A stretch of DNA of 64,000 nucleotides from Actinostola sp. cb2023 (Eukaryota > Cnidaria > Anthozoa > Actiniaria > Actinostolidae), in contig JAUJYZ010001329.1 of the NCBI GenBank assembly GCA_033675265.1, forward strand, positions 1-64,000, given 5' to 3'. The translations under genes and the position numbers were made by a program. This document shows, in pieces, positions 6,001 to 61,266 of the stretch; within the stretch, counting starts at the first letter, position 1; each line of letters starts with the position of its first letter. A model generated the notes under the pieces. It was not told where the DNA came from, did not search any database, and was given only the letters and a program-made list of their open reading frames with translations.

Positions 6001-6955
6001 TCCAACTGTCCAGTCCCCTCCCCTCCCAGTCCAACTGTCCAGTCCCCTCCCCTCCCCGTCCAACTGTCCAGTCCCCTCCCCTCCCAGTCCAACTGTCCAG
6101 TCCCCTCCCCTCCCAGTCCAAACTGTCCAGTCCCCTCCCCTCCCAGTCCAACTGTCAGTCCCCTCCCCTCCCAGTCCAACTGTCCAGTCCCCTCCCCTCC
6201 CAGTCCACTGTCCAGTCCCGTCCCAGTCCAACTGTCCAGTCCCCTCCCCTCCCAGTCCAACTGTCCAGTCCCCTCCCCTCCCAGTCCAACTGTCCAGTCC
6301 CCTCCCCTCCCAGTCCAACTGTCCAGTCCCCTCCCCTCCCAGTCCAACTGTCCAGTCCCCTCCCCCTCCCAGTCCAACTGTCCAGTCCAGTCCCGTCCCA
6401 GTCCAACTGTCCAGTCCCCTCCCCTCCCAGTCCAACTGTCCAGTCCCCTCCCAGTCCCAGTCCAGTCCCCTCCAGTCCAACTGTCCAGTCCCCTCCCAGT
6501 CCAACTGTCCAGTCCCCTCCCAGTCCAACTGTCCAGTCCCCTCCCTCCCAGTCCAACTGTCCAGTCCCCTCCCCTCCCAGTCCAACTGTCCAGTCCCCTC
6601 CCCTCCCAGTCCAACTGTCCAGTCCCCTCCCCTCCCAGTCCAACTGTCCAGTCCCCTCCCAGTCCAACTGTCCAGTCCCCTCCCCTCCCAGTCCAACTGT
6701 CCCAGTCTCCTCCCCTCCCAGTCCAACTGTCCAGTCCCCTCCCAGTCCAACTGTCCAGTCCCCTCCCAGTCCAACTGTCCAGTCCCCTCCCCTCCCAGTC
6801 CAACTGTCCAGTCCCCTCCCCTCCCAGTCCAACTGTCCAGTCCCCTCCCCTCCCAGTCCAACTGTCCAGTCCCCTCCCCTCCCAGTCCAAATGTCCAGTC
6901 CCCTCCCCTCCCAGTCCAACTGTCCAGTCCCCTCCCCTCCCAAGTGTCAAGTCTC
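1..6955. repeat. 29-bp C-rich minisatellite (about 7 kb)
   Basis: The whole interval is a tandem array whose dominant unit is 29 bp and consists of CCAGTCCAACTGTCCAGT followed by two C-rich CCCCTCC blocks. A 24-bp variant that lacks one block recurs throughout. Units are most homogeneous at about 3.5-5.7 kb and most degenerate at 1-500, as expected if unequal exchange homogenises the centre. The array ends abruptly near 6955 in AT-rich DNA, and its left end lies outside the window. The complementary strand has repeated GGGGAGGGG blocks that could form G-quadruplexes. The long open frames on both strands come from a stop-free unit whose length is not a multiple of three, so they are not evidence of coding. 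Confidence 0.97.
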
Positions 6956-7018
6956 CTCCTCCGCACGCAAATGTTATAATTATTATCATTATTTTTATTA
7001 TGCTATTGTAATACAATA

Positions 7019-7470
7019 TACATGTTGTGATGAATGCTGTCCATGCTATTTGAATACGTACTATCACCATTATACAAGATATACATAAGCGAAGTTGTGA
7101 TGAATACTGTCCATGCCATTGACCTTTGGCATAATCACCACTCAGGCTAACGTCCAAGACCATGGTGAACTAAAATGATTACTCACTTCTACAACAGAGA
7201 CAATGACTATGATGACATTAGACCAGACAACAACCATGACAGAGACAGTTAGAGACAGTTACAGACATAAGAACAATGACACAATGTTACAATAACACAG
7301 TATAGACATAGTGAATTAAAATGATTACTGACTACTACAACAGAGACAATTATGACTATGATGACATTAGAGCAGACAACAACCATGACAGTGACAGTTA
7401 TACATACATGAGAACCTGAAATACAATATGTTACAATGACACATAGATGCTAATATGATGTTACAATGTG
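7019..7470 (+). repeat. left arm of an 8-kb inverted-repeat pair
   Basis: This segment is recognisable in reverse complement at about 14,590-14,915. Shared blocks include GTTGTGATGAATACTGTCC, the GACTATGATGACATTAGA block and the GAGAACC...ACAATGACACA block, in matching order. The left arm carries its own internal duplication (7170-7260 against 7315-7410). The arms may be ends of one large element or two oppositely inserted copies of one repeat; no target duplication was found. Confidence 0.7.
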
Positions 7471-7509
7471 CACCACATGCATATCACAACTACATATAGC
7501 ATCGCAACT

Positions 7510-7650
7510 GTCTTAATTAAGTTAAAGAACTGTATTAATGTATGTCTTAATTATGTTAATTAAAGAACTGTATTAATGTTGTCTTAATTATGTTAATTAA
7601 AGAACTGTATTAATGTTGTCTTAATTATGTTAATTAAAGAAATGTAGTAA
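7510..7650. repeat. 37-bp AT-rich tandem repeat
   Basis: Copies beginning GTCTTAATTATGTTAATTAA start at about 7544, 7581 and 7618, with a diverged copy at 7510 and another at 7754 beyond the TTA microsatellite. No coding potential is seen. Confidence 0.85.
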
Positions 7651-7699
7651 TTGTAGCTCATTAGCATAGAAGAGCCACCTCGTGGATTGCTAATAAACC

Positions 7700-7700
<1 letters not shown>

Positions 7701-7746
<46 letters not shown>
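7701..7746. repeat. (TTA)n microsatellite
   Basis: An uninterrupted ATT/TTA trinucleotide run of about 15 units. Confidence 0.95.
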
Positions 7747-7759
7747 GTATGTATGTCTT

Positions 7760-9800
7760 AATTATGTTAATTAAAGAACTGTATTTATGCATATAGACTT
7801 GGAACTGTACTTTTGCTATCTTGGAAAAGTGGTCACCTTGGAGAGGTGGCCGCATAGGAGAGTGGTCGCAACCAGAGGATCAACTGCATAAGATAATATC
7901 GAAGACAATATCAAAGTATTGAGCCAGTGTGTTATTGTCTGCAATGCTGCATACACTTTTAGTATTATATTTATGGTATTCTTGCAATCAGTGTAAAGAG
8001 CGATTTAATATTATATTAATTAATAATTTATATTACTGTCATTCCCCGATTATAAGTACTTGATATTAAATCAATGTGCCCATGAATGTTTGTTGAACTG
8101 TTATTTCTTTATCATTCTCAAAGATATTAGTTTCACTTTTAAAGTTTACTGTGATCATCAAATTACATGGATGTCAGTGTCCGTAATTTCCCTGGATGCT
8201 ATATCTGCTTTAGAAAATCAGTTCCCTTTCACAATGATTTAAGTATTGAAACAGTCAAACATTACAAATTCACAGCAAGCTACAAGTTGCAATAACAATA
8301 TAGAAGACATAAAAGTTCTCTTGTGGGACAAGTCTATGGATAAGTTTTTGAGAAATTAAGTGCTATGAAAGCTGGCTGACTTCCCAGGATTCTTTCGAAT
8401 AAGAAAAAGATAGACTCCTCTGAAGTAATAAGAGTTTGGAAAACAGATTGTATGGGTACTTTATTTTGTAGGTTATACATGGAGATTATCCAGACCATAT
8501 AATAGTAGTATTTACAGCCTGACAAATGAGATAATATTTGTTGAACAAAATCATGAAAAGATTATGTCTAGATGTTGAAACACTTTAGACTACTAGTAGC
8601 CAAATGGTTTGACTTGTAATGGTATCAAAGGCACCCATTGGTGAACTCGTGGATTTCCATCTTTCAAGCATTTAATACCGATGTTTGTGGCTGACGAGGA
8701 ATGCCTTGAGGAAGACGTGAGGGCATGTTATCGCATGTAACCAGCACAGTCGTCTTTGTTATATTTCGTGATCAATGCCGTATGTTTTCGATAAAAACAA
8801 AGAGAATGTTGTGTACATTCATTTTCTGAAATAATTTCCAATTGTTTTAATTTTTATGGAGAAGAAACTGGAGTTTGATTGCGGCTCACTTCAGTAATTT
8901 TTCCCCATAATAAACGTCACCTATCCCAAGGGAAAGTGCAGTCACAATATAGAGTAATTATAAGTGCATTGTATTTTCTTGTGTTGATATCTAAGAAAGA
9001 TTTACAAAAAATAATACTCAAGTAAACTGTTCACTAGTAATGCTAGTACAATAGATATCTAACTTGCTTGCGAAAATAAAATTTATCTTCAGTTCCCCTT
9101 TAAGTAAAATGTTTAGTGATTGACTAGACTTTGAAATAAAGTGTTTGAGGCGAACGAGTTGAAGTCTCTTCACTATGTTTACATGTTTACGATAATTCGC
9201 TTCAGTGAAGGTGTCCAAAAACGGCTTAATTTGTCCAACTAATAAACTGAACTATGACATTTATCTTATCTTCTCCTTCTAAGACGACAAAGAAAACTGC
9301 CATGTGATTCAAGTCAGTGACACCGACTCCCTGAATGCTTTGTAAACTTAGCTTTCTTCACTCGGCACAGCTATATGACACAGCACCGAGTATTTGTGCC
9401 GAGCTTGCAAATTGGTTTGTTTCAGGGTATCTGAGACACTGGCGACACAGTTAATTGGTCAGGGTATTGCCATTGAAATCTGAACTAGCTGGAGGCAGCA
9501 ATATAATGGCCGCCATTTTGTATGAAATGAGAGAGCCCTGGGAACGAGTTTACAATGTTGGAGCAGAAAATTTTCCCCATCTCATCCCAATAACTCGTGG
9601 ATGCTGTGAATATATTGTTGTTGTATACATTAGCCCCACTTTGGGCTCAGTGCAAAGGGATTAATTGACCGAGTGACGCATTTCTGTTTGGCATCAAGTT
9701 CAGCGTCGTGTATTTAGTATATCTTGATAGTCATTAGATTTATTTGTCACTTTCGTTTGTTACTTGTATCGTTCTGTTTACATTCACCTGCGTTGGCTAG
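7760..9800. other. AT-rich intergenic stretch without a recognised gene
   Basis: Only short open frames (up to about 70 codons) occur, with no recognisable domain. At 7815-7880 there is a GTGGTCACCTTGGAGAGGTGGCCGC-type motif of the kind seen in the element at 23,507-23,980, suggesting a fragment of that repeat family. The part from about 9,420 may belong to the retroelement remnant that follows. Confidence 0.4.
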
Positions 9801-39531: not shown

Positions 39532-40938
39532 CTAAGCAGACATCGTAGGTATTCGGATATACTTCAAAAAGGCATTTGACTTCCACCTACCCAACACTCG
39601 TATCTGCGCATCTGACATTCCTCGACCGGCAGCATGAGACGCAGCCCCTATGCGGAAACTATGACCTTTGTAACGAGCAGGATTAAGACCACATTGCTTT
39701 ATGGCGAGGGCAAGCAGGTCGCAGAAATATTTCCTTGTGATAGGGAAACCGGATTTAATAAAAAGTGCCCCAGGGGCGTTGCCCCTGAGCGCAAGGTAGT
39801 CAAGGATAAGCTGTACTGGGCATAGTGTATCCTGGCGAGTTATGATCAACGAGAATGGGGTTCGGTTGTAGCTATGCTTAAAAGTCAGGAATGTGACCTT
39901 TAAGGATACTGTCTCGTTAGAGGCATTAACCAGCTTAGTAACGTTACAGAGTGTTAGGTTAGTATTACTAGCGTGTTTGTTACCAACCGTCATTTCCCCA
40001 ACGCGTAGGAAAGCATAAAATGCTAGAGAACACATAGCCTGGAATAAGCACAGCTCGTAAGGAGACGCGATGAATTTTGATGCAGAATTCAAAATCTTGT
40101 GAAGAATTTGAATAGTAATTGGTAACCTGCAGTCAAGACTTGAGTCTAACTTGCCATAGCCTTTCAACATCTGTACAATGAAAAATGTTTTGGTTGGGTC
40201 AAGGACTCCAAAAAGCTTATGCGAGTAACTAATGGCCGAAATATAAGTATTGACAGTCGAAGCAGCGTAATTACGATCAAACAAGTAAGCAATGAAAAGT
40301 GCTAAATCTGGTGGTGAAATGGGAAGTTGTACAGTGACCCCTGGAAAAGTAGTATGAAAAAATTGGTAAAATAAATGCCATGACCTTTTGTATGTAGGCA
40401 AGGACGACGGCTGAAGACTCGATTGCACTAATTGTCTCACTATGGCTGCCAATTCTGAGGCTGCAAGTGAAGAGGAATGTCTGTTGCGCAGCGATCCATG
40501 TGTAAGGGTGCTAAACGTCTGAAAGTCTGGACCTTCGACGAGATGTTGCACCACGGAATTGGGAATAGTCGGATTGGTGGGTGTGATGACAGGCGATGTA
40601 AGCTGGACTTCCGTTAATCCCACTGATACGTCTGCTGATACGCCGGGCTCAGATGCTGGTTGTACTTGTATCGGGACTGATGCTGACCCAGATTGCCGAC
40701 CCAAACGCTTTGTTACTTCATCGGCCACACGTGCTACCAGCTCCTCGATGTTAAGGTTTGAAGACGGTGGGCTCGACTCGGCAGATGCGGCTTGGGAACC
40801 CTGTTGCAATTGGGATCGTCGAGGTCGCTTTGATGCCCCTGATAACCTCACAGCTGGTGGTGATTGAGGGCGTTTCTCTAAACGTACAGAACGCCGTGGC
40901 ATTGTAGATCTAGAAATCGAAGAAAATAACGGCAACAA
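39532..40938 (-). CDS. tyrosine recombinase (DIRS/Ngaro/Crypton-type integrase)
   Basis: A 468-residue intact frame. The first 130 residues are basic and Ser/Pro-rich and probably bind DNA or are unstructured (MPRRSVRLEKRPQSPP). Residues about 165-260 form the SAM-like core-binding domain (YKRSWHLFYQFF...SPPDLALFIAYL). The catalytic domain follows: Arg I in FLRVGEM (R312), the HxxR box in GHSFRIGAA (H426, R429), W452 in LGRWKS and the nucleophile Y460 in KYIRIP, eight residues from the end. These enzymes cut and join DNA through a 3'-phosphotyrosine and integrate circular element DNA. It lies 332 bp downstream of the hydrolase on the same strand. The intact reading frame and complete active site suggest a recent or active element. 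Confidence 0.93.
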   Translation of the reverse strand: MLPLFSSISRSTMPRRSVRLEKRPQSPPAVRLSGASKRPRRSQLQQGSQAASAESSPPSSNLNIEELVARVADEVTKRLGRQSGSASVPIQVQPASEPGVSADVSVGLTEVQLTSPVITPTNPTIPNSVVQHLVEGPDFQTFSTLTHGSLRNRHSSSLAASELAAIVRQLVQSSLQPSSLPTYKRSWHLFYQFFHTTFPGVTVQLPISPPDLALFIAYLFDRNYAASTVNTYISAISYSHKLFGVLDPTKTFFIVQMLKGYGKLDSSLDCRLPITIQILHKILNSASKFIASPYELCLFQAMCSLAFYAFLRVGEMTVGNKHASNTNLTLCNVTKLVNASNETVSLKVTFLTFKHSYNRTPFSLIITRQDTLCPVQLILDYLALRGNAPGALFIKSGFPITRKYFCDLLALAIKQCGLNPARYKGHSFRIGAASHAAGRGMSDAQIRVLGRWKSNAFLKYIRIPTMSA

Positions 40939-41270
40939 ATGACAACACCCGATAGGGTACGTATAAGAAGACTATGTGGTATGGCAAACAAAATACAAAC
41001 CAGAGACAGGCCATGTCAGACAAATTGTCGACGCAATTAATGGCAAGTCTCAACAACAATGCGACAACACAGTCGCAACAATAATGGAGACAAAAGTCTC
41101 AAACATTAACGAGATAACAAGATCTCAACAATTTAACGAGACACATGGTCTATTAAAACAAGTAACAGAGATAAAGTCCGATTCGGACTTATCATAACAA
41201 AAATAGAGCGAAAGCCCAACAGATAAACATGTGATATAACGTAACATGGATATATCAAATAAAAAGTGAA

Positions 41271-41864
41271 TCAATTGTATAACGGCAGCAAACTTAATGC
41301 CCTTATAATTGCACCTCGATAGCTACGGTACAAAAAATACTGGCCCGTAGAGTTGAGGTGAACTCCATCCCTTAAATAAAGATCCTTAGCAGGATGATTG
41401 AAATCACGGTGCGACCAATGAAATATACCAGGTAAAGGTTCTAGGACAACACGGAGGTACCGATTTAAGAGATTGGCCTTGCTTAAGAACTGCGAGGGGT
41501 GTGTACTCGTAAGGCCACGAGGGATTACTTGGCATACGCCAACAACGTTTACTGAATGCTCACGCTGTAAAAACCTGGCAAATTCTTCTATTTGGGATCC
41601 TACAACCTCAGGAGAGGTGGAAGATAGGTCATTTGTTCCTATCTCAAGAATCACTACGTCAGGCTTAAGGCGACGGACGACATGCATATCATATGTGCAC
41701 AACTTCGGTACCGTTCGACCGCCAACACCACATAAAGTGACACTGACAGAGGTATTAAAATGAAAACTAACGTTTGTACGAGGATCAAAGCAAGCATCCA
41801 GGTCGCTATGTAAACGTTTAACAAAGGAATGCCCCAGAATGAGAACCGTCGGCACCGACCCCAT
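41271..41864 (-). CDS. SGNH/GDSL-type hydrolase of the recombinase element
   Basis: A 197-residue frame with all SGNH blocks. Block I is ILGHSFVKRL with the nucleophile Ser near residue 13; block II is the Gly in GVGGRTV; block III is LEIGTNDLS with the Asn; block V is DGVHLNSTGQ with the Asp-His pair. The fold normally hydrolyses esters or acetyl groups; the substrate here is unknown. Hydrolases of this class have been described in Ngaro-type retrotransposons, and a companion of a tyrosine recombinase fits that. The frame begins at a Met just before VPTVLILGHS and lies near the upstream A1 repeat, from which it is probably transcribed. Confidence 0.88.
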   Translation of the reverse strand: MGSVPTVLILGHSFVKRLHSDLDACFDPRTNVSFHFNTSVSVTLCGVGGRTVPKLCTYDMHVVRRLKPDVVILEIGTNDLSSTSPEVVGSQIEEFARFLQREHSVNVVGVCQVIPRGLTSTHPSQFLSKANLLNRYLRVVLEPLPGIFHWSHRDFNHPAKDLYLRDGVHLNSTGQYFLYRSYRGAIIRALSLLPLYN

Positions 41865-42013
41865 TATAACGATGAACTGGGAAAGGATGGAGTCCGCACC
41901 GAGAATTAAATAGTGCGGTTAAAATAACACAACAGGAAAAAGTTTCCTTACCTTAAAAAGTAGAATTTAAACAAGGGAAAACTTGAATTAAAGTACAACA
42001 GTTACTGGTACTA

Positions 42014-43877: not shown

Positions 43878-44675
43878 GTAACGTATAACGGACTTCCTTT
43901 ACTTTCATTTTTGATCATCTTGTTGACAGTCATATTTTGAAGTAAAATCTACTAGGGTAACCTATATTTTCGCTTAATATATATGTGTTTTCGTTCGATA
44001 GTATCGACTCGTAGAAGTAAACGAGTAAACAACACAGTGAATCAACCATGCCAACTCTAGTCTAGTGCTCTGAAATGAAGTATATGTAGTCTCTTATTTC
44101 TTCACTGCATCGGATACAGAAGTCACCCTTCCCTTGGACTGTACACATGGGTCATGCCAGCTTCCTCATTGAACTATAAACGGCGATTAGTTTTATTTCC
44201 GAATACAGTCCAGTTTTTTTAAACTACATGTATAAAGATGTTAGAACGAAAATTATAAATCACCGAAAGTGTCAATAGGTAGACGTTTCTCATAGTTTTG
44301 ATCTGCAGGTACGCGTTTTTATTTAATACAAAGCTAAATATGTATACTTATTAATACCTCGTACAATCTACCTTATTATATGCAATAGATTCATTTCTTA
44401 CATTAGCTGTAATTAACGCTGGGGGCCTAATAAATCAAAATAAAATACTGTATTGTGTAAGAAGTCTTTTTAAATTCCCAATCTATGTACATGTAAGCTT
44501 ATTCAACATTTGTTTACAACCTATAGCTTGAACACCCTGTCCAAGTGATCTGCAAGTTTGATGTTGTGTTTTGCATGTCAGGTTAACTTTGTGTGCTAAA
44601 GCTCATTACACTGAAACAAATACCAAACCACAAATGTCTTACAGTACCTAGAATTGGATAGTGTTTATTGTAACT

Positions 44676-45188
44676 AGTAGATATGAAATGGCGGTTCTGC
44701 GCCAGGTATGTACCTGTATTATCGGCATTCACACCCAATACCGGTACAAGCACAGCTTGGTCCCCAGTATACGGTATAAGGGCAGCTTGGTCCCCAGTAT
44801 ACAGTATAAGCGAGGTCCCCGATGCCGGCATAAGCGAAGCGTGGTCCCCGGTAGTGCCAGACCAGCCGGCCGAAGCCTTTTTTGTTTGTTTCCGCACTTC
44901 TATTTTTTATTTTTTTATTTTTTTAAATATATATCCAACTTGAGTTCACTTTATATATTTATAATTATAATTATTTTTGTTGTTCTGAAGACTTCATCTT
45001 TTGTATTGTAATTTCCGGTACGGATTGTCTATTGTTTTCTAACAGACCTTGTGTCTATTTTAGAACGACCGTTTGGTCTTTCGCTGACGTTTTTTATTTT
45101 CCCCGTATTTCATTTTTCTGTGAGTCATCAGTTCGTGACACAAACAAATGACGTCAGCACAAACAAACATAAACTAAAGAATAAAAAT
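44676..45188 (+). repeat. left terminal inverted repeat of the Polinton-like element
   Basis: Reverse complement of 51622-52153 with few substitutions and one main indel near 45,050. The outer 200 bp contain short sub-repeats around GCTTGGTCCCC and TATAC.GTATAAG. Confidence 0.95.
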
Positions 45189-45189
45189 C

Positions 45190-45195
45190 TTTATT
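45190..45195 (-). promoter_or_regulatory. candidate poly(A) signal of the 222-residue gene
   Basis: Minus-strand AATAAA lies 73 bp past the stop codon at 45268, just inside the left terminal repeat. Position fits a 3' end signal; use is inferred. Confidence 0.4.
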
Positions 45196-45267
45196 CGTAT
45201 ATATAATTATTATTAAATCGTAAAACAACAAGTTTTGTTTGAATTTTAAATGATAAGGGTCCATTGT

Positions 45268-45936
45268 TTAAAAAAGTTCTTTTGACTCAAATAAAAGTGT
45301 TCCTTCTCTCGAGGGAGGAAAACCAAACAAACTACTCTTCTCTCCCTCTTTGTTCATATCGCCTAGTTCTAAATTCGTCTCTTCGTTTGGAAATCGCGCT
45401 CGTTCATGTTCTGATACTTGATTGGATCCAAACAAAATCTTAGCTTTTTTACTTGTGGGTGGTACATCAAACAAACCGCTCCTCTTTCCGGTCTCCTTCT
45501 GCTCTTCGCATTTATCCCCTTTGTTTCCAGTTTGAAATCGTCTCTGTTGATATGGGAGGAGATTGCAGTCAATCACGTGACGGTTCTTTATCCAATATTC
45601 GTAAGCCAAGACTGCATCCATCGTTGGGGCTCTAAAAAACTCGTCCGTTTCCACCACACGATAGAACCACTCAGCCGGCATACTAAACTCTTGCTTTATC
45701 CCCATACGTTCTACAGTCACTCGATCGTCTAAAACCACTTTCTTGGTTCTCTTATACACTTCTGACGTAGGTGTCGTTGTAGCGTTTCGTACTATTTGAT
45801 TGGTTGGGTCCAGGTTAAACTTCACAACCAGAGAATTTGGTTGATCTATAGTCACACTTTGTACATTCACCTTTTTTAAGAGATCTTCCAGAACCATCGA
45901 AGGCGTCATCATAGATCTGGCTAACATGTTCATCAA
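45268..45936 (-). CDS. unknown 222-residue protein of the Polinton-like element
   Basis: No family is recognised. Residues 1-135 look folded, mixed alpha/beta (SLVVKFNLDP, KRTKKVVLDDRVTVERMG, EWFYRVVETDEFF, AVLAYEYWI). The C-terminal third is charged and contains a loose duplication: GLFDVPPTSKKAKILFGS and SLFGFPPSREGTLLFESKE. It has no membrane segment or signal peptide. Position next to the left terminal repeat, facing it, suggests a virion-associated or element-specific role, but this is speculative. The nested foldback begins about 380 bp upstream of its start, so a longer ancestral gene or a lost neighbour is possible. Confidence 0.6.
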   Translation of the reverse strand: MMNMLARSMMTPSMVLEDLLKKVNVQSVTIDQPNSLVVKFNLDPTNQIVRNATTTPTSEVYKRTKKVVLDDRVTVERMGIKQEFSMPAEWFYRVVETDEFFRAPTMDAVLAYEYWIKNRHVIDCNLLPYQQRRFQTGNKGDKCEEQKETGKRSGLFDVPPTSKKAKILFGSNQVSEHERARFPNEETNLELGDMNKEGEKSSLFGFPPSREGTLLFESKELF

Positions 45937-46319
45937 GTTTGCTGTCTAGATCAAACTAACCTCTGCACTCACATTCAATCGCTTCTTATAACTATTTTCC
46001 AAACTGATTACATCATCATGATGCAAATAAAAAATGATATCATTTTCTAAACTGAAAATAGAATAGCGTTGGTTTTCTAAGTTTCGTATGCTGAAGTTAT
46101 TTTTAGTACCTGCATGACTTCATGAATCTATGAACTTTCAAATGCTCCCTCAACCCAGACTCCCACCCGGTCACCCTACGGCTTTAAAAATATTTCAGAC
46201 AACACCTGTTTGCACAATGGATACTCCCTCTATTCTTATTCCGCAGAGACTGCAGATTGTCTATATTAAAATCACCATGACCAAAAGCGTAGTTTCAAAG
46301 CTGCTTTATTAGACTTCTA

Positions 46320-48184
46320 AGACATTTAAGAGTGGATGCCAGTAAGGATCGAGACTAATTCTTCAACTCAAAAAATTCGAATTTAATTTTATTTCTCCAT
46401 ATCATTCCTTTCGATGACCTATTTTAGGGAAAAATACTAAAAAGTTCCAGCGAATTTTATTTTAGGAAAAATTTCAAGTTTTTAAAAACCCGTCTATCTA
46501 CTTAATTTTTTTGACTAAATTATAAGCCAAATTTGAACAGTCGGTGTGTGTGCACCTCTAGAACTACAACAATGACATTAAGAACACTTAATAAACGTTT
46601 CTTGGTCTTTTCTACTGTGTAATTTATTTTTCTGTAACTTCTGTAGTTATTTTTCAAATTTGGTTTTAAAAAGGTATACTGAGCGCCATGAACGGAACGT
46701 TGAAATATAGGCAATGTTTGAGGTACGAAAAAGGAATCTGGTACATAAATTTTTGATGAAAACGCCATGCCCTAGGAAAGCTTTACGTTTGCTCTATCAG
46801 TTTAGAAAGTTTCAAGCATGGGAATTCAATGTAGCATTTTTGAGAAATAAAACTATTATGCTTGGGACTGCCAAAATTAGCATAATTTTCGTCCTGTGGC
46901 GGACATTTTTGTCATCCAAACACAAAACCTAACGCCAAAACACGGCTATCTTGCATTTTTAGTTGATTGCTGCTGATGGAAAACAATGTTCGAGTCAATA
47001 GGAATGATTTTCAACAATGTTTGTGTTTCGATGGTCGTAAATAACTCTCGCAAAAGTTAAAATTAGCATAGATGGTCGATCAGATAACAGCAAAATACGA
47101 ATTTTGTTTAAACAACGTATATACGAAATTCCACCCATTCAAGCAAGTATGAATTCTGTTTAGTATTATATTTTATGATTAAAACTATTATTTCATGCCG
47201 CAAAAAAAATTATTCGAAGGGCAGTAGCGTGACTTGCAGCAGCTACATTGCGTTACATAATTGGCTTGTCAACAAAGTGGAGCATCGTGTCAAAATATCC
47301 GAACTCTTCATGATAAAGCGCCAGTTTGAACTAGAAATCAGTGCAATTGTTTGTAAATCTTATTTGGAGCAAACTCTAAGCATTTTAGAGTGAAGAACCA
47401 CAATTTTCGGAAACGGTGTTTATATTTGATCAATGAATATGCTAATTGTCACTATTTTAGGAGCTTATGTGGCTGAAATAGCTCAATATGGTTGAAAATA
47501 ACTCTTATTAACTCCAAGATTGTTATCAGTTGGCAGCGAGCAACTAAAAGTGCAAGATAGTCGTGTTTTGGAATTAAGTTTTGTGTTTTAACGACAAAAA
47601 TGTCCGCCACAGGACGAAAATTATGCTAATTTTGGCAGTCCCAAGCCTAATAGTTTTATTTCTCAAAAATGCTACATTGAATTCCCAAGCTGGAAACTTT
47701 CTAATCTGATAGAGCAAACGTGAAGCTTTCCTGGGACATGGCGTTTTCTTCAAAAATTGATGTACCAGATTCCTTTTTCGTATCTCAAACATTGCCTATA
47801 TTTCAACGTTCCGTTCATGGCGCTCAGTATACCTTTTTAAAACCAAATTTGAAAAACAACTACAGAAGTTACAGAAAAATAAATTATGCAGTAGAAAAGA
47901 CCATGAAACGTTTATTCAGTGTACTGAATGTCATTGTTGTAGAGCTAGAGGTGAACACACACCGACTGTTCAAATTTGGCTTATTATTTAGCCGAAAATG
48001 TTCGGTCGACAGACCGGTTTTTAAAAACTGGAAATTTCTCCTAAAATAAAAATCGCTGGAACTTTTTAGTATTTTTCCCTAGAATAGGTCATCGAAAGGA
48101 ATGATATGGTGAAAGAAAATGAAATTCGAATTTTTTGAGTTGAAGAATTAGTCTCGATCCTTACTGGCATCCACTCTTAAACAT
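46320..48184. mobile_element. foldback element nested in the Polinton-like element
   Basis: The arms 46,320-46,963 and about 47,549-48,184 are reverse complements (shared AAGAGTGGATGCCAGTAAGG, CATCGAAAGGAATGATATGG, ATGGCGCTCAGTATACC and GTCCGCCACAGGACGAAAAT). The 585-bp centre is AT-rich and unique. Short frames in both arms are mirror copies, not genes. It may be inserted, or it may have arisen by internal inverted duplication, because no clear target duplication was found. Confidence 0.8.
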
Positions 48185-48231
48185 CCAAAACAAACAAAGA
48201 ATGAAATTTGATAGTTCACATTCACTTGTTC

Positions 48232-49692
48232 TTAATACTTCTGCCAGTTAGGTATTGATTTAATCACGGCTCTTAATCGTTCTGAACGTCGAGGAGGTGT
48301 TACTACATCGTCGTATTTATGGGCATCCCGATAAGGTATCCACTTGATGGGTTTTTCTGTACTTGGTGGGGGAGTGGGTGGAAATATGGGTGGGCCAGAT
48401 GGAGTGTTTGGTGTGTTGAACAAGGAGGTTGGTTGCCCCATTTCTGAATGGGTTCTTATTGGAGTAGAAGGAACCTCAACTGAAGTCGATGGTCTCGAAG
48501 TAGATGGTATTCTAATTTTAGAGGTGAGGCGTTGTAGCATGGAAGGTGGTTTAGATGTAACAAAACCACTATCACGAGTTAGACTTGTTGAAGGAACATT
48601 CTCTGGAGTTGTAAAAGCCGGCAGATGGTTTTCATCAGCCAATGGTGGTAGGACTGCTTCTTGCCTGGGTCTGACCACCACACTGTTCGGAAGTTGTTGT
48701 TCGAGGTGGAGGTAGCGATTAAACAGTGTAGTGTATTCTTTCACTTTCACCTCTGGAGGAACACTGGGGTCTTTTAAAATGTGGTCCATCTGCTCTTCTA
48801 GATTCTGCATGGCTTTTAAGAGGGGTGACTGTAAGTACCCTTGACGTTGAAAAAAGTTACCAATGGTCTTCATCGCATCCAATTGACCCCCAGTCTGTGG
48901 GGGATCATTCGGAAGAACATTAGTACGCAGTCGACACTCCTCTGGAGTGTTGGGTTTGAGATCAACAAAGAGGTAGCCGTAAGGTCGTTCGACAGCCGCT
49001 TCATACTTATGAAGAAACTGGTCGGTCTTGCCAGGGTTCATCTGTTTTCCCAATGTTGTTATTTGTAGTTTATCTCTTGGGTTTATAAACAGAACTAGGT
49101 ATGCGGCATTCAGACTCAACGTGCGCATGATTTTGCCTTGAAAGTAAACATTCTGACAGAGGAAAATGACACTGAGATTTCTATGGTGGGATCCCTTGGT
49201 AAATAAATTCATAATTCTTTTGTCGTTGGAGGTCTCGGTCATTTGGTCGTCAATGACTATCAGATTGTTGACTTTGGGATCAGAATACCAATCCTCGTCC
49301 AGGTCGTGAGGGATGCCTCTGACAAACTCGATCCCTGGTAGAGTCTGCTGCAGTTGCTCATAGGCCGGTTGCCATTGCGAATAGCTCCATACAATACGGT
49401 CAGGGGGAGGTTGAATGACTCTACTTGCGTGTTGAAGCAAGTTCTGAACCCAGACCGTTTTTCCAGACCCAGTCATTCCCGCCACGATAGCCGTAAAGGG
49501 GTGGAGTAACTGAAAACGGTCACACTTTATGTCTTCAACATTTTCAGTCCGGGGGTAGGGAGTAAACCGCTGACCGCTCTTTTGCATTTGAACCAGAAGT
49601 GTTCGATCCGGACCATTGATCTTGTGAACACGACTTATATGAGATGATAAATTTTGTACTGATTTGTGGCACAAGGGACACAACCGACCCAT
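48232..49692 (-). CDS. FtsK/HerA-superfamily (A32-like) packaging ATPase
   Basis: A 486-residue intact protein. An N-terminal C2H2-type finger (C5, C8, H18, H23) precedes the P-loop ATPase core: Walker A AGMTGSGKT at 71-79, Walker B LIVIDDQM at 144-151 and a sensor-like strand VIFLCQN at 175-181. The C-terminal 180 residues are Pro/Ser/Thr-rich and end in a basic tail (PPRRSERLRAVIK). Viral members of this superfamily pump DNA into capsids, and adenovirus-like and Polinton elements carry such an ATPase. It is transcribed leftward from the heptamer-rich spacer shared with the divergent 108-residue gene. Its intact frame argues that it is recent or under selection. The N-terminal finger is an uncommon addition. 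Confidence 0.85.
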   Translation of the reverse strand: MGRLCPLCHKSVQNLSSHISRVHKINGPDRTLLVQMQKSGQRFTPYPRTENVEDIKCDRFQLLHPFTAIVAGMTGSGKTVWVQNLLQHASRVIQPPPDRIVWSYSQWQPAYEQLQQTLPGIEFVRGIPHDLDEDWYSDPKVNNLIVIDDQMTETSNDKRIMNLFTKGSHHRNLSVIFLCQNVYFQGKIMRTLSLNAAYLVLFINPRDKLQITTLGKQMNPGKTDQFLHKYEAAVERPYGYLFVDLKPNTPEECRLRTNVLPNDPPQTGGQLDAMKTIGNFFQRQGYLQSPLLKAMQNLEEQMDHILKDPSVPPEVKVKEYTTLFNRYLHLEQQLPNSVVVRPRQEAVLPPLADENHLPAFTTPENVPSTSLTRDSGFVTSKPPSMLQRLTSKIRIPSTSRPSTSVEVPSTPIRTHSEMGQPTSLFNTPNTPSGPPIFPPTPPPSTEKPIKWIPYRDAHKYDDVVTPPRRSERLRAVIKSIPNWQKY

Positions 49693-49764
49693 CTCGTGTC
49701 TTTTGAGGAATGAGTTAAATTATTATGGAGGTTGTTATTTATAAGAGTTTTAATATATCCAGGT

Positions 49765-50020
49765 TAAGCTATCGGCTATCGGCTATCAAGCTATCAGCTA
49801 TTGGCTATTGGCTATCGGCTATCAGCAATCGGCTATCGGCTATTGGCTATCGGCTATCGGCTAGCTATTGGCTATCGGCTATCGGCTATTGGCTATTGGC
49901 TATTGGCTATCGGCTATTGGCTATCGGCTATCGGCTATTGGCTATCGGCTAGCTATTGGCTATCGGCTATCGGCTATTGGCTATCGGCTATTGGTTATCG
50001 GTTATCGGCTATCAGGAATA
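49765..50020. repeat. heptamer array (GGCTATC/GGCTATT) between divergent element genes
   Basis: About 35 near-tandem heptamers occupy the spacer between the ATPase (leftward) and the 108-residue gene (rightward). GGCTAGCTATT variants interrupt the phase twice. It lies 72 bp from the ATPase start and about 60 bp from the plus-strand start, so it could act as an iteron-like origin or a shared promoter. Confidence 0.93.
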
Positions 50021-50081
50021 TAAATAAATAGCTTAGCTTTCTATTAAAATTTCATTTGAAACAGCCTTCCATAGAGACAAC

Positions 50082-50408
50082 ATGAGTCAACTCCTATGTC
50101 AAAATTTCGGTTATTTGCATCATTTAGCACATTGTCCTCCCCACCAGAGGGCTTTATTACTGGCCTCCGCTAGTCCAGAACAGGTTCATGCCATTTGTGA
50201 AGTGTGTTTGAATTTGTGTATGGGCACTCTTCCGGTTACGGTTGGACAAAAAGAAAGACTTAAACCACATGTGGATGTCATACGAGAATTAGCGGACTCC
50301 TCAATTCCTTTCAAAACCAAGAAACGAACTCTAGCCCAACACGGTGGGGGATTTGTGTCCGATGTCATGTCACCGCTGATGTCAGCTTTGAGCCTGTTTT
50401 TACTATAA
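50082..50408 (+). CDS. small GGG-motif protein of the Polinton-like element
   Basis: A 108-residue protein starting MSQLLCQNFGYLHHLAHC. Residues 20-65 form a helical block (ALLLASASPEQVHAICEVCL). A basic stretch (KPH...KTKKRTLAQ) follows, then HGGGF near residue 88 and a hydrophobic helix SPLMSALSLFLL at the C-terminus. I recall similar small proteins with this helical block and GGGF plus a hydrophobic tail beside transposon ORFs in cnidarian and other invertebrate genomes, but cannot cite a family. The Gly-Gly could be a processing site for an adenain-like protease, which this element does not encode. A membrane-active or minor virion role is only a hypothesis. Confidence 0.65.
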   Translation: MSQLLCQNFGYLHHLAHCPPHQRALLLASASPEQVHAICEVCLNLCMGTLPVTVGQKERLKPHVDVIRELADSSIPFKTKKRTLAQHGGGFVSDVMSPLMSALSLFLL

Positions 50409-50464
50409 ATAACGTCATCTTGAAAGAAAACCTTCATTTTACCTTGACTACCTGAGGAAGCAAC

Positions 50465-51265
50465 ATGAAAAGATCAAGAGTCGATTCTACTAGCTCTGAA
50501 GAAAGTTCAGTTTATTCTGAAAAGAGTTCCTCGGAATTGGACATTTTTGACGATGACGAGATCGAAGAAGTTATGCAGGATCTCTCCCAGAGTACTATCC
50601 CGAAAGATAAGGCTCTAGCTTTTCTTCACAGTCTTGCTGCTTCAAAAAGTATTTTATACTGGAATTCTCATGGTGAGATGACTTATCATCAACGAAGAAT
50701 TCCCCTAACCAACATAGTAGAACTTATTGAATATGCCATGTTACCTTACAACCTCGATGTCAGAACCCCGAGAGGACTCAAAACATTCACGAACGGGTTA
50801 TCGGAAGTCGGAATTGACAAAATACTGATACGAAACAAGCGCTTGCTGGCGGATCTGGTTGCTAGACAACCTGAAGAAGAGGATACTGACGATGACAGTG
50901 AGAGTGGAGAAGAAGAAACGGATGAATCTGAGGCAGAAAGCACATCAACAGAATCTGACAGTGGCAAGTCGGAAAGTTCAGAATCGGATGATGAACCTAG
51001 GGAGTGTCACGTGTGTCGTGACTTTAAGCCGTTCTATTCGATACCTATTGTTCAATGCCCTAGATGTCTATAGCGAGAAGGCTACTACTGCCGTCAGAAT
51101 CAACATGTCGAGTGCGATGTATGTGCGCATGTGTTCCCAGTGGATGTCAAAACCACAAAAAGAACCTTTTGCCGTTGTAGAGACTGCGATGCTGTTCATG
51201 AACTGTCGTTAAAATTCAATAAATTGAAACTCATTGACGGGGAACAGGAATCTGAAGAAGATTAA
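50465..51265 (+). pseudogene. acidic Cys-rich zinc-binding protein interrupted by an in-frame TAG
   Basis: The first frame (50465-51073) gives 202 residues. It has a Ser/acidic N-terminus, a folded domain at about 55-135 (ILYWNSHGEMTYHQRRIP...PRGLKTFTNGL) and a long Asp/Glu/Ser tract, then the start of a Cys-rich module (CHVC at about 180, CPRC at about 199). A TAG at 51071-51073 stops it there. The same frame stays open for another 63 codons to TAA at 51263-51265, with four further Cys-x2-Cys-type pairs or single Cys in zinc-binding spacing and an acidic end. The module is therefore split by a single nonsense codon. AATAAA follows at about 51,294. Readthrough, recent inactivation and sequence error are all possible. 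Confidence 0.6.
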
Positions 51266-51621
51266 ACCAGTTGAATTTTGTCGTGCAAACCCCAAATAAA
51301 ACGTTCTAAATCAATTTGAGTGGTGGTGTGATTTTATAATTATTTAAAGAAATGTTGTGATTTTATAATTGCCTAGTTGTAAATAAATCACATTTTTAAA
51401 AAGACTCGCGTGTTTGACTCTAGTTATTATTGTTCTGATACACAGACGAATTTACATATGGTCACCTGTTGATACAACAATAGATAATATATCTAGCGTG
51501 CCTCTCAGTCCATTGTTTAAGTTAATCTATTAACTATTGTTTACCCTACTGTAATTGAAATAAATTTGTTAGGGTACGAGTGGTGGACATTTTCGATTAA
51601 ATGTTTTGAGTTCTAAAATCT

Positions 51622-52153
51622 ATTTTTATTCTTTAGTTTATGTTTGTTTGTGCTGACGTCATTTGTTTGTGTCACGAACTGATGACTCACAGAAAAATGA
51701 AATACGGGGAAAATAAAAAACGTCAGCGAAAGACCAAACGGTCGTTCTAAAATAGACATGTGTGTAAACAAAAGGTCTGTTAGAAAACAATAGACAATCC
51801 GTACCGGAAATTACAATACAAAAGATGAAGTCTTCAGAACAACAAAAATAATTATAATTATAAATATATAAAGTGAACTCAAGTTGGATATACATTGTAT
51901 ATAAAAAAAATTATAAAAAATAAAAATAGAAGTGCGGAAACAAACAAAAAAGGCTTCGGCCGGCTGGTCTGGCACTACCGGGGACCACGCTTCGCTTATG
52001 CCGGCATCGGGGACCTCGCTTATACCGTATACTGGGGACCAAGCTGCCCTTATACCGTATACTGGGGACCAAGCTGTGCTTGTACCGGTATTGGGTGTGA
52101 ATGCCGATAATACCGGTACATACCTGGCGCAGAACCGCCATTTCATATCTACT
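51622..52153 (-). repeat. right terminal inverted repeat of the Polinton-like element
   Basis: Inverse of 44676-45188. It carries about 20 extra bases near 51,760 (around ATGTGTGTAAAC). The target duplication GTAACT follows immediately. Confidence 0.95.
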
Positions 52154-52272
52154 GTAACTGCTCAAGGTGGCCAAAACCTGGCTTGATTTTGATAACCGAA
52201 GACATCACAATAATTATTGTTTGTAGCACCAGATCCAGTTGTTGAAAATAAGTGTTGAAACAGAACAATACA

Positions 52273-52412
52273 TACCCTGGTCCTAGAGGCACTGACCTAC
52301 ACTCTCCCTTACTGTACTTTTGAGCAGCGAGAAGCTTGTCAGCTTCACAGCTCGCTCGCCGCTTTGTGGCTCAAAAGTACAGTAAGGGAGAGTGCCTCTT
52401 GGGACCAGGGTA
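52273..52412. mobile_element. 140-bp palindromic MITE
   Basis: TACCCTGGTCCTAGAGGCACT and AGTGCCTCTTGGGACCAGGGTA are inverted ends. The inner arms ACTCTCCCTTACTGTACTTT and AAAGTACAGTAAGGGAGAGT are exact complements. Confidence 0.9.
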
Positions 52413-55576: not shown

Positions 55577-56463
55577 CAGCGGGCAAGTTTTCTATTTCTT
55601 TTATAAAATACAATTATGATTTTAAGGCAAGTTTTCAATTTTGTTCGTTATAAAAATGTTTGTATATCTGTGTGCTATGTGCTCTCATAAAGCACGCGGA
55701 ATACGCATCCTTTGGCCAATCAGAGCGCGCGTTATATCATATAGTTATTTTATAATACATTATAACTGGGTAGAGTTTTCGTTGTGACGATCGATTATTT
55801 GCGAAATAGAAACCATTTTGAGCACAGTGCTTGTGAAAGGCATATGCATAACAAAGAGTGATAATTTCGCTGTCATCTTCAAAACTTAAGTTACGGTTCG
55901 AGTTGATTAGAATATCATAAAAACAGATAAATTGGGGATCGACGTTCTCTACATTGGCTCAGTATTATAATATGTCCGTGATTCGTGATATAACATTTCT
56001 CTCCACCGTGAATGGTGCTGTTGAACCCCCACCCCCTCTACGCCCCTGATTGAACACTGAACCCATAATTTGGCTATATTCATTCATTTGGTAAGTATTC
56101 ATTTGTAAATTTCCCATTTTCTTTTTCTTTTTGACAACTTAATTGAATTAAATCAAATCTAGCCTCCTCCGCAGTCAAACGTAAACGTGATCGAAGGACT
56201 TAGGTTTTCATGGGGTAACCGTTTGAAGTTGAATGAAATGAATCTAAGGAGGTCAATTTCAAATAAAAGTAACTTAAACAACAAAGGCAATTCGTAAAAT
56301 GATCATGTCTGAAGTACAACGACATAATTAATGAAATGAATTTCCAGAGTGTATTTATTGTAATGTGGTATTATTGCATGACTCATTGTCAAAAATTGAC
56401 GTCATGATGACATCATAACGACAAGATGTTACATTTGGAAAATCAGTAACATTCTCTGTATAT

Positions 56464-57416
56464 TGGAAGCCTACAGCCGGAGAGTTGGTCAATACATTGA
56501 GAGATCTCCTTGGTTCAACCTTAACATCTGGTTCAATGAAATGCTATCAACGGGCTTGGGCAGTATTTACACAGTTCATCAATAGGTTTTATAGTTTATC
56601 TTCACCCACATTGCCCATATCATCTTCTTGTCTTGCACTGTTTATTTCGTATTTGTGCGCCAGGAAATTAGCTCCTTCAACCGTTATCGGTCACGTATCA
56701 GCCATTGGCTATGTTCACAAAATGAAAGGCTTTCCGGACCCATCAAAAGCATTTTTGATACGTAAATTACTGACAGCAGTGGGTCGACACAAATCCAGTG
56801 ATATCCGTTTGCCCATTACTCGAAATGTATTACATGAACTTGTGGGATCTCTTGAACATACCAACTCTTCTGCTTGGCAACGCATTTTGTTTAAAGCTAT
56901 GTTTCTGGTAGCTTTTTACGGCTTTTTTTCGCTTGGGTGAACTGGCGACCAAGGGTTCACAGTTTGCAAGCTGCGTCCTCCAATATGGTAGCATACATTT
57001 CGTAACAGAAAAGGGTTGCGTGTGTAAAGTTAAAATCACTATCTCGAAATTCAAGCACAATTCAACGAATAGGCCGTGTGAGATTATGATTGACCGCCAG
57101 AGCGTGCGGTCCTTCTGTCCAGTACAGTCTTTGATTGATTATTGTAATATTCGAGGTCTAGCGCCTGGTCCACTATTTTGTTTTCCTGACATGCGTGCCA
57201 TAACGGTTACTCAGTTTTAACACTGAACTTCGACGCTGCCTGACATTCTGTGGGCTAGACAGCTGTCGATACAAAAGTCATAGTTTTCGAATAGGGGCTG
57301 CGTGCTACGCAGCGGAACAAGGTTTTTCGGACGCGCAGATTAGATCCCTTGGTCGCTGGAAATCCGATGCTTTCAAACTTTACATTAGACCTACTTCGTT
57401 ATCTGCAATGTCTTGA
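56464..57416 (+). pseudogene. second tyrosine recombinase, broken by two single-base shifts
   Basis: A recombinase of the same type as the one at 39,532-40,938. Three consecutive frames cover it: about 56,464-56,940 (core-binding domain, CYQRAWAVFTQF...LALFISYL, up to FYGFFSLG), 56,933-57,220 (start of the catalytic domain) and 57,219-57,416 (HSFRIGAACYAAEQG, LGRWKSDAFKLYIR, stop). Each shift sits in a T run (TTTTTTT near 56,924; TTTT at 57,215-57,218). HxxR, Trp and the Tyr nucleophile remain, but Arg I falls at the first lesion. The basic N-terminal extension is missing and there is no Met start, so it is 5'-truncated. No hydrolase or split repeats were found beside it. Confidence 0.88.
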
Positions 57417-58343: not shown

Positions 58344-61266
58344 TCAAATGATCAATCCTAGATTGACTGCCGCTGCTTGCTTATGGCAAGGTTGTAGCTG
58401 GGCAAGGACACCTGGCTGTAACTGCACCATTGCTCCATTGAAGAATGGAAGGCGTTGTCTCAGGCACATATTGCTTGCATGGAAGTAGGCGTTTCCCATC
58501 TTTGACATTTGTCTTCCTTCATGAAGAAACTCGCGTCGCATTTGTGAGGCTACAACTAGGTCATGTGGAGGTGGAGTGGGGTGTCCCGCTACCCTTAGAG
58601 GCTGGTTGCAGCCGTAGCATACAGATACTGCCGGGTGACACCATCCAAGGATTGTCAAAACGAAGTGGCCAGGTCTTAAGAACGGAAGCTGGGAAATTGA
58701 CTGGATATTAGCAGTTGACTGGCTGGACTGGGTTTGTGACAGTTGAGGCTGCGTTGAATGCAATGGCGGTTGTTGAAGTTGGTACAATGACCTGGGATGC
58801 TGAAGGCCGGCGTAAGACTGGGTCATCTGTGGTACAAGGGATTGTATGGCAGGCTGGAGGATATGGCGTGGTGGTGGCTGGGATAGAGAAGAGTCCTGGG
58901 CACAAGGCTGTGATTGCCCAGACTGACTGGAATCGGGCCTTTGTTTTCTAGTAAAAAGACTGTCCAGCAAGTCCTTTGAAAACTTTTTTTCTTTAAGGAT
59001 TGGACTATCCTCCTGGACGTCGAACACAAACATCAACACCCACAACACATGTTTACAATGGCAAGTGCGGTTATCAGGACATGAGCATGAAGGTGTATGG
59101 CAGATGTCAACCTCGTACAGCTTTTCGCCATGCATCACGTGGTATTTCTGGTGATCTGTGGCAATTGCAAACTTCTGTTTTACATCAAATTCTGTTGCCT
59201 CTGATTTTGCTACTTCAATAGTGTGAAGCAATTGCTTGCTGAATGGCTTGGCGTTGCTTGGATTATTCTTGATACTCTGTTTTCGCTTGGGTTTCCCGCG
59301 CTTTGTAGGGCTATGAGATGCAGTTGGATCCACAAGGCTACAAGTGCTACCAGGAGAATATGGATCACCTTCAAACTCTTCGGCAAGTATCTCTTTGCCA
59401 TACTCATTCGCTCTTTGGATTTGCCGCTGTCGTTCTAGTCTTTCTGACTCTGTGGAGCTAGGCCCTTTTCCGGTTGGCCTTGCACTTCCCTCCATAAACC
59501 GCTCAACCATTTTCTCCAGGCGGATGTTTTCACCGACATCGTGACGTGCCGCATCTACCAGACTCAACTGGATCGCTCCCGATTTAACCCAGGTAGAATG
59601 TCCTGTCTCTGCCATATTCATTCGCGGCGTCAGCATGGTGGCCTTGAAAGCTCTGAATATGTGTGTTTTTCGGTCTATCCACCATGAAACCCACGTACTT
59701 AGGAACCCACGCTCTTTTGGACGCTCCTTTATAAATCTATTGATATCTGCACGCTTTTTCTCGAATGTGCTTACGGTGTTGGCCTGCAGTAGTGCATCCG
59801 CTAATGTCTCAAATTCAGACTTGTCGGGCTCCGTCAGCTTGGCTGCTTTGCGTCCCACCGACTGTTTATAATGGAATTCGCAGCCGATCACTTTTGGAAT
59901 GGATTGCTCACCAAAAACTATGCGCACTGCATTCCACTGCGCGCCAGCTTCGTCCAACACCCAACCAGTGGGATTGAAGACATATTGAGGATCACCTGTT
60001 ATGTCTTGCAAAATCTAAAAAAAACGAAATACGACAAAAATACGACTGATAAATCAGTGAGACAAAAGGGATTACAATGGATAGGGATTACAAAAAAACA
60101 AGATCATCATTTAAAACATAAAAGGAATAAAAACGTAGGGAATTGAAACGTAAAAAAATAAGAAAAGGAAGAAGAGGAAATGAAGGGAAAGGTAATAATG
60201 AATGCATGTACTTCTTCGCATATGAGTATTTAGTATGCACAGGACAACCTTTTTTTTTGAAAAATATTTTTCTTAAATACCTCGTTAAAGAGCGACCAGA
60301 ACTTGATCATTGCATCTGTGTCTTCTTTCATACTTTCCATCGTCGCTAGCTTCACCAGTTTTCGCAGTAAAGGATGATATACCCATGTGGTGATGGTTTT
60401 AAATCCAGGACAGTGTTTGTGGGTGGCATCGGCATAGCAATATTGGCCATGCAGCACGCCGTCTTTTGAGCTGTCCATACTAAGGGCCAGTTGGGCTTGA
60501 AAACGAGAACATTGAAATACGTACGTTAAATCTCCATTTTGACGTTCGTCGTTGATCTTGTACACAAGATACGGATCTTTTTGGTCACAAAATTTCTTGA
60601 ATTGACAAAGAGCGTCCAACGAATGGCCATGTAATTCAAGTGAGCGCTTGACCTTTGCCTTGGTGTCCTGTATTCTTCTGGTGTCTGCCAAGGTGTATGC
60701 CATTTTATCGATTTCTTCCCACGAGCTATTTCCATCTTTTAAGGCTGCAACCATAGTGTTTGAGGCAGCCTCCGATGGTTTCAAGGAAGCATGTTTCTTG
60801 AAATCCTCTTCAAGTTGCTGTTCGATGCCTACGTCAGTTTGATTCAGGGGTATAGCATGACAGGTGTGCATACCCTTATGGTAAACAGTTACTTTTTTTC
60901 GATCATTGTAAAATTCCCACACTTTGATAGCAGAGCAGGGTACATATGATGCCTCAAATTCACAGATGAAACATTTCTTTTTCTTGCTTTTGTGAATACT
61001 AATTGGATGTGATTTGGCTGGCCTTTCTCTTTTAAGTACAGGCACTCGGGATTTGAACACAGCCACGACCCTCCACACTGTGCACGTCGTCTCACACCAG
61101 TATGCCCACTTCTCTTCGATGTACACCAGGTCTTCCATGGTCTGCCATCTTTACTGGATTTCATCATATGTTGTGAATCGCATGTCAGTTCATACCGATG
61201 TAGGCCGTCAATATCAAATGGCAATTTCGTTACCATCTCTTTAGGCACAACATCAAACATATTCAT
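58344..61266 (-). pseudogene. MULE-type transposase gene, two exons with one apparent frameshift
   Basis: Exon A spans about 61,266-60,281 and exon B 60,014-58,344, joined by a canonical 266-bp intron (minus-strand donor GAG|GTATTT, acceptor TTTTTTTTAG|ATTTTG) in phase 0. In order there are: an N-terminal Cys/His module (GLHRYELTC...GVRRRAQCGGSWLC...C); a second Cys motif (KKKKCFICEF...VPCSAIKVWEF...HKGMHTCH); the MULE DDE core with YADATHK, VLDEAGAQW and CEFHYKQSV; a SWIM-type zinc finger CSCPDNRTCHCKHV; and a Gln/Pro/Ser-rich tail. The first module and the rest lie in different frames; the switch falls at about 60,970-60,990 in an A/T-run-rich stretch. It could be a pseudogene or a one-base error. 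Cut-and-paste transposition of DNA is the family's role. Confidence 0.8.

Follow-up and report, generated by a model that had tools for sequence, protein, structure and literature searches.

The described systems nearest to the element reported here are of several kinds: Polinton/Maverick elements usually measure 15–20 kb, adintoviruses take their name from their integrase and PolB, and virophages carry capsid genes of their own. How the parts of animal Polintons depend on one another, and whether particles form, is addressed here through a 7,478-bp element at positions 44676–52153 of a 64,000-nucleotide stretch of the genome of the vent anemone Actinostola sp. (assembly GCA_033675265.1, contig JAUJYZ010001329.1, positions 1 to 64,000; hereafter the window). 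We consider it somewhat probable that this element belongs to a multi-copy family of small, gene-bearing, trans-dependent derivatives of adintoviruses or Polintons.

The adintovirus of the Terrapene box turtle is mentioned as having a gene for a packaging ATPase (PMC10812802), and two sea anemone Polintons are mentioned as having a capsid of the polinton-like virus (PLV) type (PMC4642659). In bidnaviruses, whose PolB is of the Polinton type, the segments measure 6–6.5 kb and have inverted repeats (PMC4061559); members of the bidnavirus group with up to twelve segments (PMC11071296) are, among these papers, the nearest precedent for a split, PolB-bearing virus. Among the literature surveyed by titles and abstracts, no paper dealt with such reduced elements in anemones.

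Results

The window element is flanked by GTAACT on both sides, read in the DNA at 44670–44675 and 52154–52159, and is bounded by terminal inverted repeats (TIRs) of 513 bp on the left (44676–45188, plus strand) and 532 bp on the right (51622–52153, minus strand). Both arms begin, inward from their outer ends, with AGTAGATATGAAATGG, so that the element ends in AGTAG...CTACT, and they are 95.5% identical across 533 columns (3 mismatches, 21 gap columns). Relatives were sought in the whole genome (424,152,321 bases, 1,594 contigs), where a search with the TIR gave at least 54 matches, a lower bound that rests on the scoring of 40 of 337 candidates. Thirty stretches around TIR matches were read, plus a few later.

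At least 16 elements possess both termini and identical 6-bp flanks, and the flanks differ among elements: GTAACT in the window, GAGGAT in L009, AACATC in L010, CTTTGC in L011, GATCGG in L012, AAGGGG in L013, GTGATA in L014, CACACT in a member nested within L014, AATGTA in C21, CACCTT in L022, AATTAT in C262, CACGTG in L034, TGCCAC in L037, AGCGTG in L038, AAGCCA in L017 and CATATG in L018. The duplications of L013 and L017 count for less because their flanks lie inside simple or tandem repeats. In L029 a 17th pair of termini is present, but its flanks are unequal; the other loci read showed a single terminus, gave none with the search pattern, or ran to the end of the contig. A preliminary description, made from the window's letters alone, had reported TIRs of about 0.5 kb, AGT...ACT ends and an exact GTAACT on both sides, and had taken 6-bp duplications with AG/CT ends as the mark of Polinton-type insertion. 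The former were recovered as described, and the latter recur in the 16 elements.

The TIR arms are 99–100% alike in L011, L012, L013, L037, the nested L014 member and L018; elsewhere their identity is 98% (L009), 95% (L014), 93% (L010), 92% (L038) or 83% (L034). Judged by arm likeness of 99–100%, the insertions of L011, L012, L037 and L018 appear to be recent. Three members are short, namely L013, L018 and the one nested in L014; of these, L013 and the nested member lack complete genes. The nested member lies at 2199–4183 of L014, inside the ATPase gene of another member.

Eleven of the 16 elements (window, L009, L010, L011, L012, L014, C21, C262, L034, L037 and L038) carry a common block of genes for an ATPase, a protein designated GGG and an acidic/Cys-rich protein, which is also present in the one-ended L033. 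Several copies with one gene set and different duplications, a check that had been proposed for the window element, were thereby found. The block keeps its colinear order across TIR subfamilies, with a DNA identity of 89–97% in the aligned parts of the element pairs compared; between the window element and L037 and L038, whose TIRs have diverged, it is still 92–93% identical, so the block outlives the ends. Ratios of nonsynonymous to synonymous polymorphism (pN/pS) were pooled over copies of the GGG and acidic/Cys genes; they ignore the tree and are indicative. GGG gave 0.22 across 12 copies free of stops, the acidic part 0.27 across 5 ungapped copies and the Cys part 0.20 across 12 copies, one of which has a stop. 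The block looks to be under purifying selection, a signal which suggests that it helps its carriers to spread. A single random deletion, named beforehand as the explanation that would speak against a satellite-like element, was tested and is ruled out: random deletion of single copies does not explain a block with low pN/pS that is common to 11 of the 16 complete elements and colinear across TIR subfamilies.

ORF222, a 222-residue open reading frame, was matched in the window, L009 (99%), L010 (broken), L014, C21, C262, L017 (64%), the one-ended L020 and stretches L016 and L025; the complete elements L011, L012, L034, L037 and L038 gave no match to it. Fic/DOC-type frames occur in L009 (5210–6044; PF02661 at 3e-10), L014 (7182–7975) and L017 (3814–4639 and 7242–7810), those of L009 and L014 being split over two frames. 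The element of L017, continued in L041/L042 (C526:400078–410171), is 10.1 kb long, and its terminal repeats measure 1.7 kb or more; it contains CGC (our label for a frame near the element end), ORF222, two Fic copies, one of them partial, and only 36 residues of the ATPase in each repeat. Two large members were considered as full-length relatives and set aside: C21 (14.7 kb) owes its larger size to a BEL-type retrotransposon and has, as far as it was read, the same genes; C262 (38.3 kb), with about 16 kb of its middle unread, likewise holds the same genes, together with Helitron/helicase-like and retroelement frames recognized by eye.

The window copy is laid out as two divergent gene pairs, ORF222 and the ATPase on the left (minus strand) and GGG and the acidic/Cys-rich gene on the right (plus strand), separated by a tandem repeat of the GGCTATC/GGCTATT type at 49764–50017. 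The ATPase (48232–49692, minus strand) is an intact A32/FtsK-like, packaging-type protein of 486 aa with an N-terminal zinc-finger-like segment. It matches Pox_A32 (PF04665) at 27.7 bits, over the curated cut-off of 22.8, and its P-loop and acidic-pair residues are invariant across 31 aligned sequences. In the protein database its family comprises 265 proteins at E ≤ 1e-3, one cluster among the best 120 holding 511 sequences; the named relatives among the matches listed are from Actinostola and Oculina. Because this family is large, similar elements may be common and may have been read as stray genes. ORF222 (45268–45933, minus strand; 221 aa from the first ATG) is intact and has no Pfam or PHROG match.

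The GGG gene (50082–50408, plus strand) is an intact frame of 108 aa, for which 23 homologues were found. Its structure model is all-helical, with a predicted local distance difference test score (pLDDT) of 90, and it matches A0A5H3CT60 of the Terrapene box turtle adintovirus (Foldseek E 3.6e-6, probability 1.00, template modeling score 0.88, 35% identity); the runner-up reached only E 0.73, and a Foldseek search of the PDB gave no match at E 0.001. On the evidence of this predicted fold, GGG and the adintovirus protein are homologous. The name GasderminX, given to A0A5H3CT60 by its depositor, implies a pore function by the name only. For the ATPase P0013 and the GGG protein P0142 alike, the longest contig has the length 16,562, a match in length only, which suggests that the two genes may be neighbours in another species.

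The acidic/Cys-rich gene occupies 50465–51073 (plus strand) for its first 202 codons, up to an in-frame stop, and continues at 51074–51265 (plus strand) to a Cys-rich end, a part compared in 12 copies; in L009, L011 and L024 the frame is uninterrupted, as stop-to-stop frames of 269 codons. Its structure model is weak (mean pLDDT 64) and found no structural match. A match to PF05563 (SpvD) at 50859–51212 was rejected, as it belongs to an overlapping, out-of-frame 117-aa frame and scores 20.5 bits, below the cut-off of 25, despite E 4.5e-4. IMG/VR yielded no match to the ATPase or its alignment, to the GGG alignment or to the acidic protein.

The window element has only three stop-to-stop frames of at least 150 aa. 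No Pfam match to a capsid, polymerase or integrase was obtained among the five window frames scanned, no capsid-like frame was found by the sequence profiles of Pfam or PHROGs, and tblastn at E 1e-3 gave no match in the window to PolB pieces from the same genome or to the Polinton-type integrase of L029. The gene content thus agrees with the preliminary description, which had listed an intact P-loop ATPase of A32 type, a 108-residue GGG protein and a 222-residue frame, and had denied the element a polymerase, an integrase and a capsid. Its Cys-rich acidic protein is present as a gene, but the window frame carries a premature stop. The structure prediction it had called for yielded the GasderminX match, which strengthens its interpretation.

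Within the window copy, a foldback transposon of 1,847 bp at 46330–48176 is flanked on both sides by a TTAA duplication and has 697-bp inverted arms, 91% alike, and no clear gene; it is piggyBac-like by its TTAA site only. Since it is TTAA-flanked and the corresponding site is empty in L009, L010 and L014, this segment of about 1.85 kb is foreign to the window element and not part of it.

A relative with PolB was found in L022, where an element of 6,123 bp (3561–9683) lies between two copies of CACCTT and has a family terminus on either side. The right one matches the window TIR at 91% identity over 286 columns, and the element shares with that of C21 an alignment of 862 columns at 92% identity that takes in the CGC frame. 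The interior holds pieces of PolB on the minus strand; the PolB core corresponds to QZH41_017837 at 100% identity, with 89% of the query covered. This core has no Pfam match itself, and its family numbers at least 7,993 proteins, some with PF03175/PF02945. At E 1e-3, the L022 element gave no match to the ATPase, to the GGG or acidic protein, to integrase or to Fic, and PolB and the ATPase block occur together in none of the 16 elements in the parts read. The earlier call for relatives with shared ends and PolB, integrase or capsid was answered for PolB, in a relative that is small rather than full-length and lacks the block; the search, which was partial, found no family element with integrase or capsid.

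P0169, another gene model for PolB on the contig of L022, has a translated family terminus at its end (88%, 34 aa). An IMG/VR contig, L047, encodes a PolB of 1,313 aa that is 45% identical to that of L022; its neighbours are a PLA2 domain protein, a T4-fibre/Peptidase_S74-like protein and, by eye, capsid-like frames, so we take the PolB lineage to be viral. A tail of the PolB model P0147 resembled the acidic protein by eye and was not used, as it is absent among the blastp matches listed. Near PolB and GRF zinc-finger frames in L039, successive divergent ETS-domain-like frames were seen by eye at 1438–3201.

A Polinton-type rve integrase (PF00665, 1.5e-8) was found in L029, where the region 124–6089 also holds a helicase-like frame, recognized by eye, and other frames. 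We rejected it as a part of the family, as the termini do not enclose it and their flanks are unequal.

Elsewhere in the window, an array of about 7 kb in tandem (177–7088; SPTVQSPPLP-type repeat) is open in several frames. By eye, a tyrosine-recombinase (Crypton-like) frame of 479 aa at 39532–41918 adjoins an SGNH-like frame, and a fragment at 56419–56940 appears to be related to this locus. MULE/SWIM-type transposase-like frames were seen by eye at 58344–61150, and a perfect 26-bp inverted repeat lies at 52300–52394, about 147 bp outside the element.

Discussion

If the window element is a trans-dependent derivative of an adintovirus or Polinton, such elements would spread as a unit with a packaging or particle block made up of the A32-like ATPase, the GasderminX-like protein, the acidic/Cys-rich protein and often ORF222, and integrase, probably with PolB and capsid, would be supplied in trans by other elements. 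PolB may copy the element via the shared termini, as the common ends suggest. A Polinton-type integrase, proposed on account of the 6-bp duplications and AG/CT ends familiar from that group, would insert it. The ATPase, by its family, may package the DNA of its own or of a sister element into a capsid whose gene lies elsewhere. Packaging and the use of a helper are inferred steps, the search for an element with integrase or capsid being partial. The retention of a packaging block under apparent selection without capsid, polymerase or integrase argues that the packaging step is still relevant to spread.

Several observations weigh against this interpretation. The partial search turned up no family element carrying integrase, protease or capsid, and the integrase of L029 adjoins two family-like termini that are 1.4 kb apart, with unequal flanks, and do not enclose it. 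The ATPase aligns in at least two pieces in every block-bearing element except the window's, so most copies look broken in this gene. Several pairs of arms are older (window 95.5%, L010 93%, L038 92%, L034 83%). Of at least 87 PolB matches in the genome (82 of 505 candidates scored; the best 12 at 84–100% identity), only the element of L022 was read in DNA with its flanks, and its arms are of different subtypes that do not align with each other. Finally, the gene model P0015, on a 343-kb contig, spans a family ATPase into PolB, so the two genes may occur together in one element.

The strongest rival, possible yet doubtful, is a split virus or transposon in which integrated segments with shared ends carry the ATPase and GasderminX-like genes (window), PolB (L022), Fic and ORF222 (L017), and, on segments yet unseen, integrase and capsid, all of them being needed. 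Extended further, and held just as tentatively, this reading would have the segments copied by a shared polymerase and inserted separately, which would amount to a multipartite dsDNA virus in an animal germ line. It accords with complementary genes behind shared termini, one of the 16 elements having PolB but no block and 11 having the block but no PolB, with the 862 aligned bp of end plus CGC frame shared by L022 and C21, with the third gene set that L017 carries between the same ends, and with the P0169 model running into a family terminus; the bidnaviruses, with their Polinton-type PolB, offer a segmented precedent (PMC4061559, PMC11071296). However, the partial search yielded no segment with integrase or capsid, the one PolB element fully read has ends of different subtypes, and P0015 joins ATPase to PolB in a single gene model. 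The neighbours of the related PolB on L047 indicate, moreover, that the PolB lineage is not split everywhere.

That same P0015 model would also suit an old deletion derivative, a reading we judge improbable, in which one ancestral internal deletion of an element ordered end-CGC-PolB-...-acidic-GGG-ATPase-ORF222-end gave a short form that was amplified as a non-autonomous element, its genes being relics. The PolB element and the ATPase element of C21 have CGC at the same end, short derivatives without complete genes exist (L013 and the nested L014 member), and in many copies the ATPase aligns only piecewise. Nevertheless, pN/pS is low among copies of the GGG and acidic/Cys genes, a signal that relics should lose, and the block is kept while the TIRs diverge. 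An autonomous transposon with co-opted viral genes and integration machinery of its own, unrecognised as such (for example ORF222 or the acidic/Cys protein, neither of which has a recognised family), is very improbable, since five complete elements gave no ORF222 match, no catalytic motif was recognised, and a Polinton-type integrase already explains the 6-bp duplication and AG/CT ends.

With the family read as trans-dependent adintovirus/Polinton derivatives, a PolB element with matching ends makes the choice between split genome and satellite testable in an assembled genome. Compared with what is generally known of Polintons/Mavericks, the family shares long TIRs, AG/CT-type ends, 6-bp duplications and an A32-type ATPase; it differs in that profile and tblastn scans of the window element gave no match to rve integrase, PolB or a double jelly-roll capsid, and in that family elements measure about 5–7 kb. 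No protease was found in the window element either. The Terrapene adintovirus shares with the window element a GasderminX homologue, whereas integrase with PolB and hexon/penton were not found in the latter; the acidic/Cys protein, with its weak model and lack of a structural match, is alike in composition only to adintovirus oncoid genes of the Rb-binding type.

The likeness to bidnaviruses is one of organisation only, namely small segments, inverted repeats and a Polinton-type PolB, which here sits on the separate L022 element; unlike in bidnaviruses, no parvovirus-type capsid or superfamily 3 (SF3) helicase Pfam match was present in the five window frames scanned. Virophages and other satellites share dependence on a helper as a possible way of life for the window family, and differ from it in that no capsid frame was found in the window element. 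Of the features of a satellite, many copies and a PolB relative with matching ends were seen, and the partial search found no helper with integrase or capsid and the same ends. Miniature inverted-repeat transposable elements (MITEs) and deleted non-autonomous transposons likewise have common ends and are mobilised in trans; in contrast to these, four genes are present in the window family, of which two or more are viral in type, and the two analysed for pN/pS have low values.

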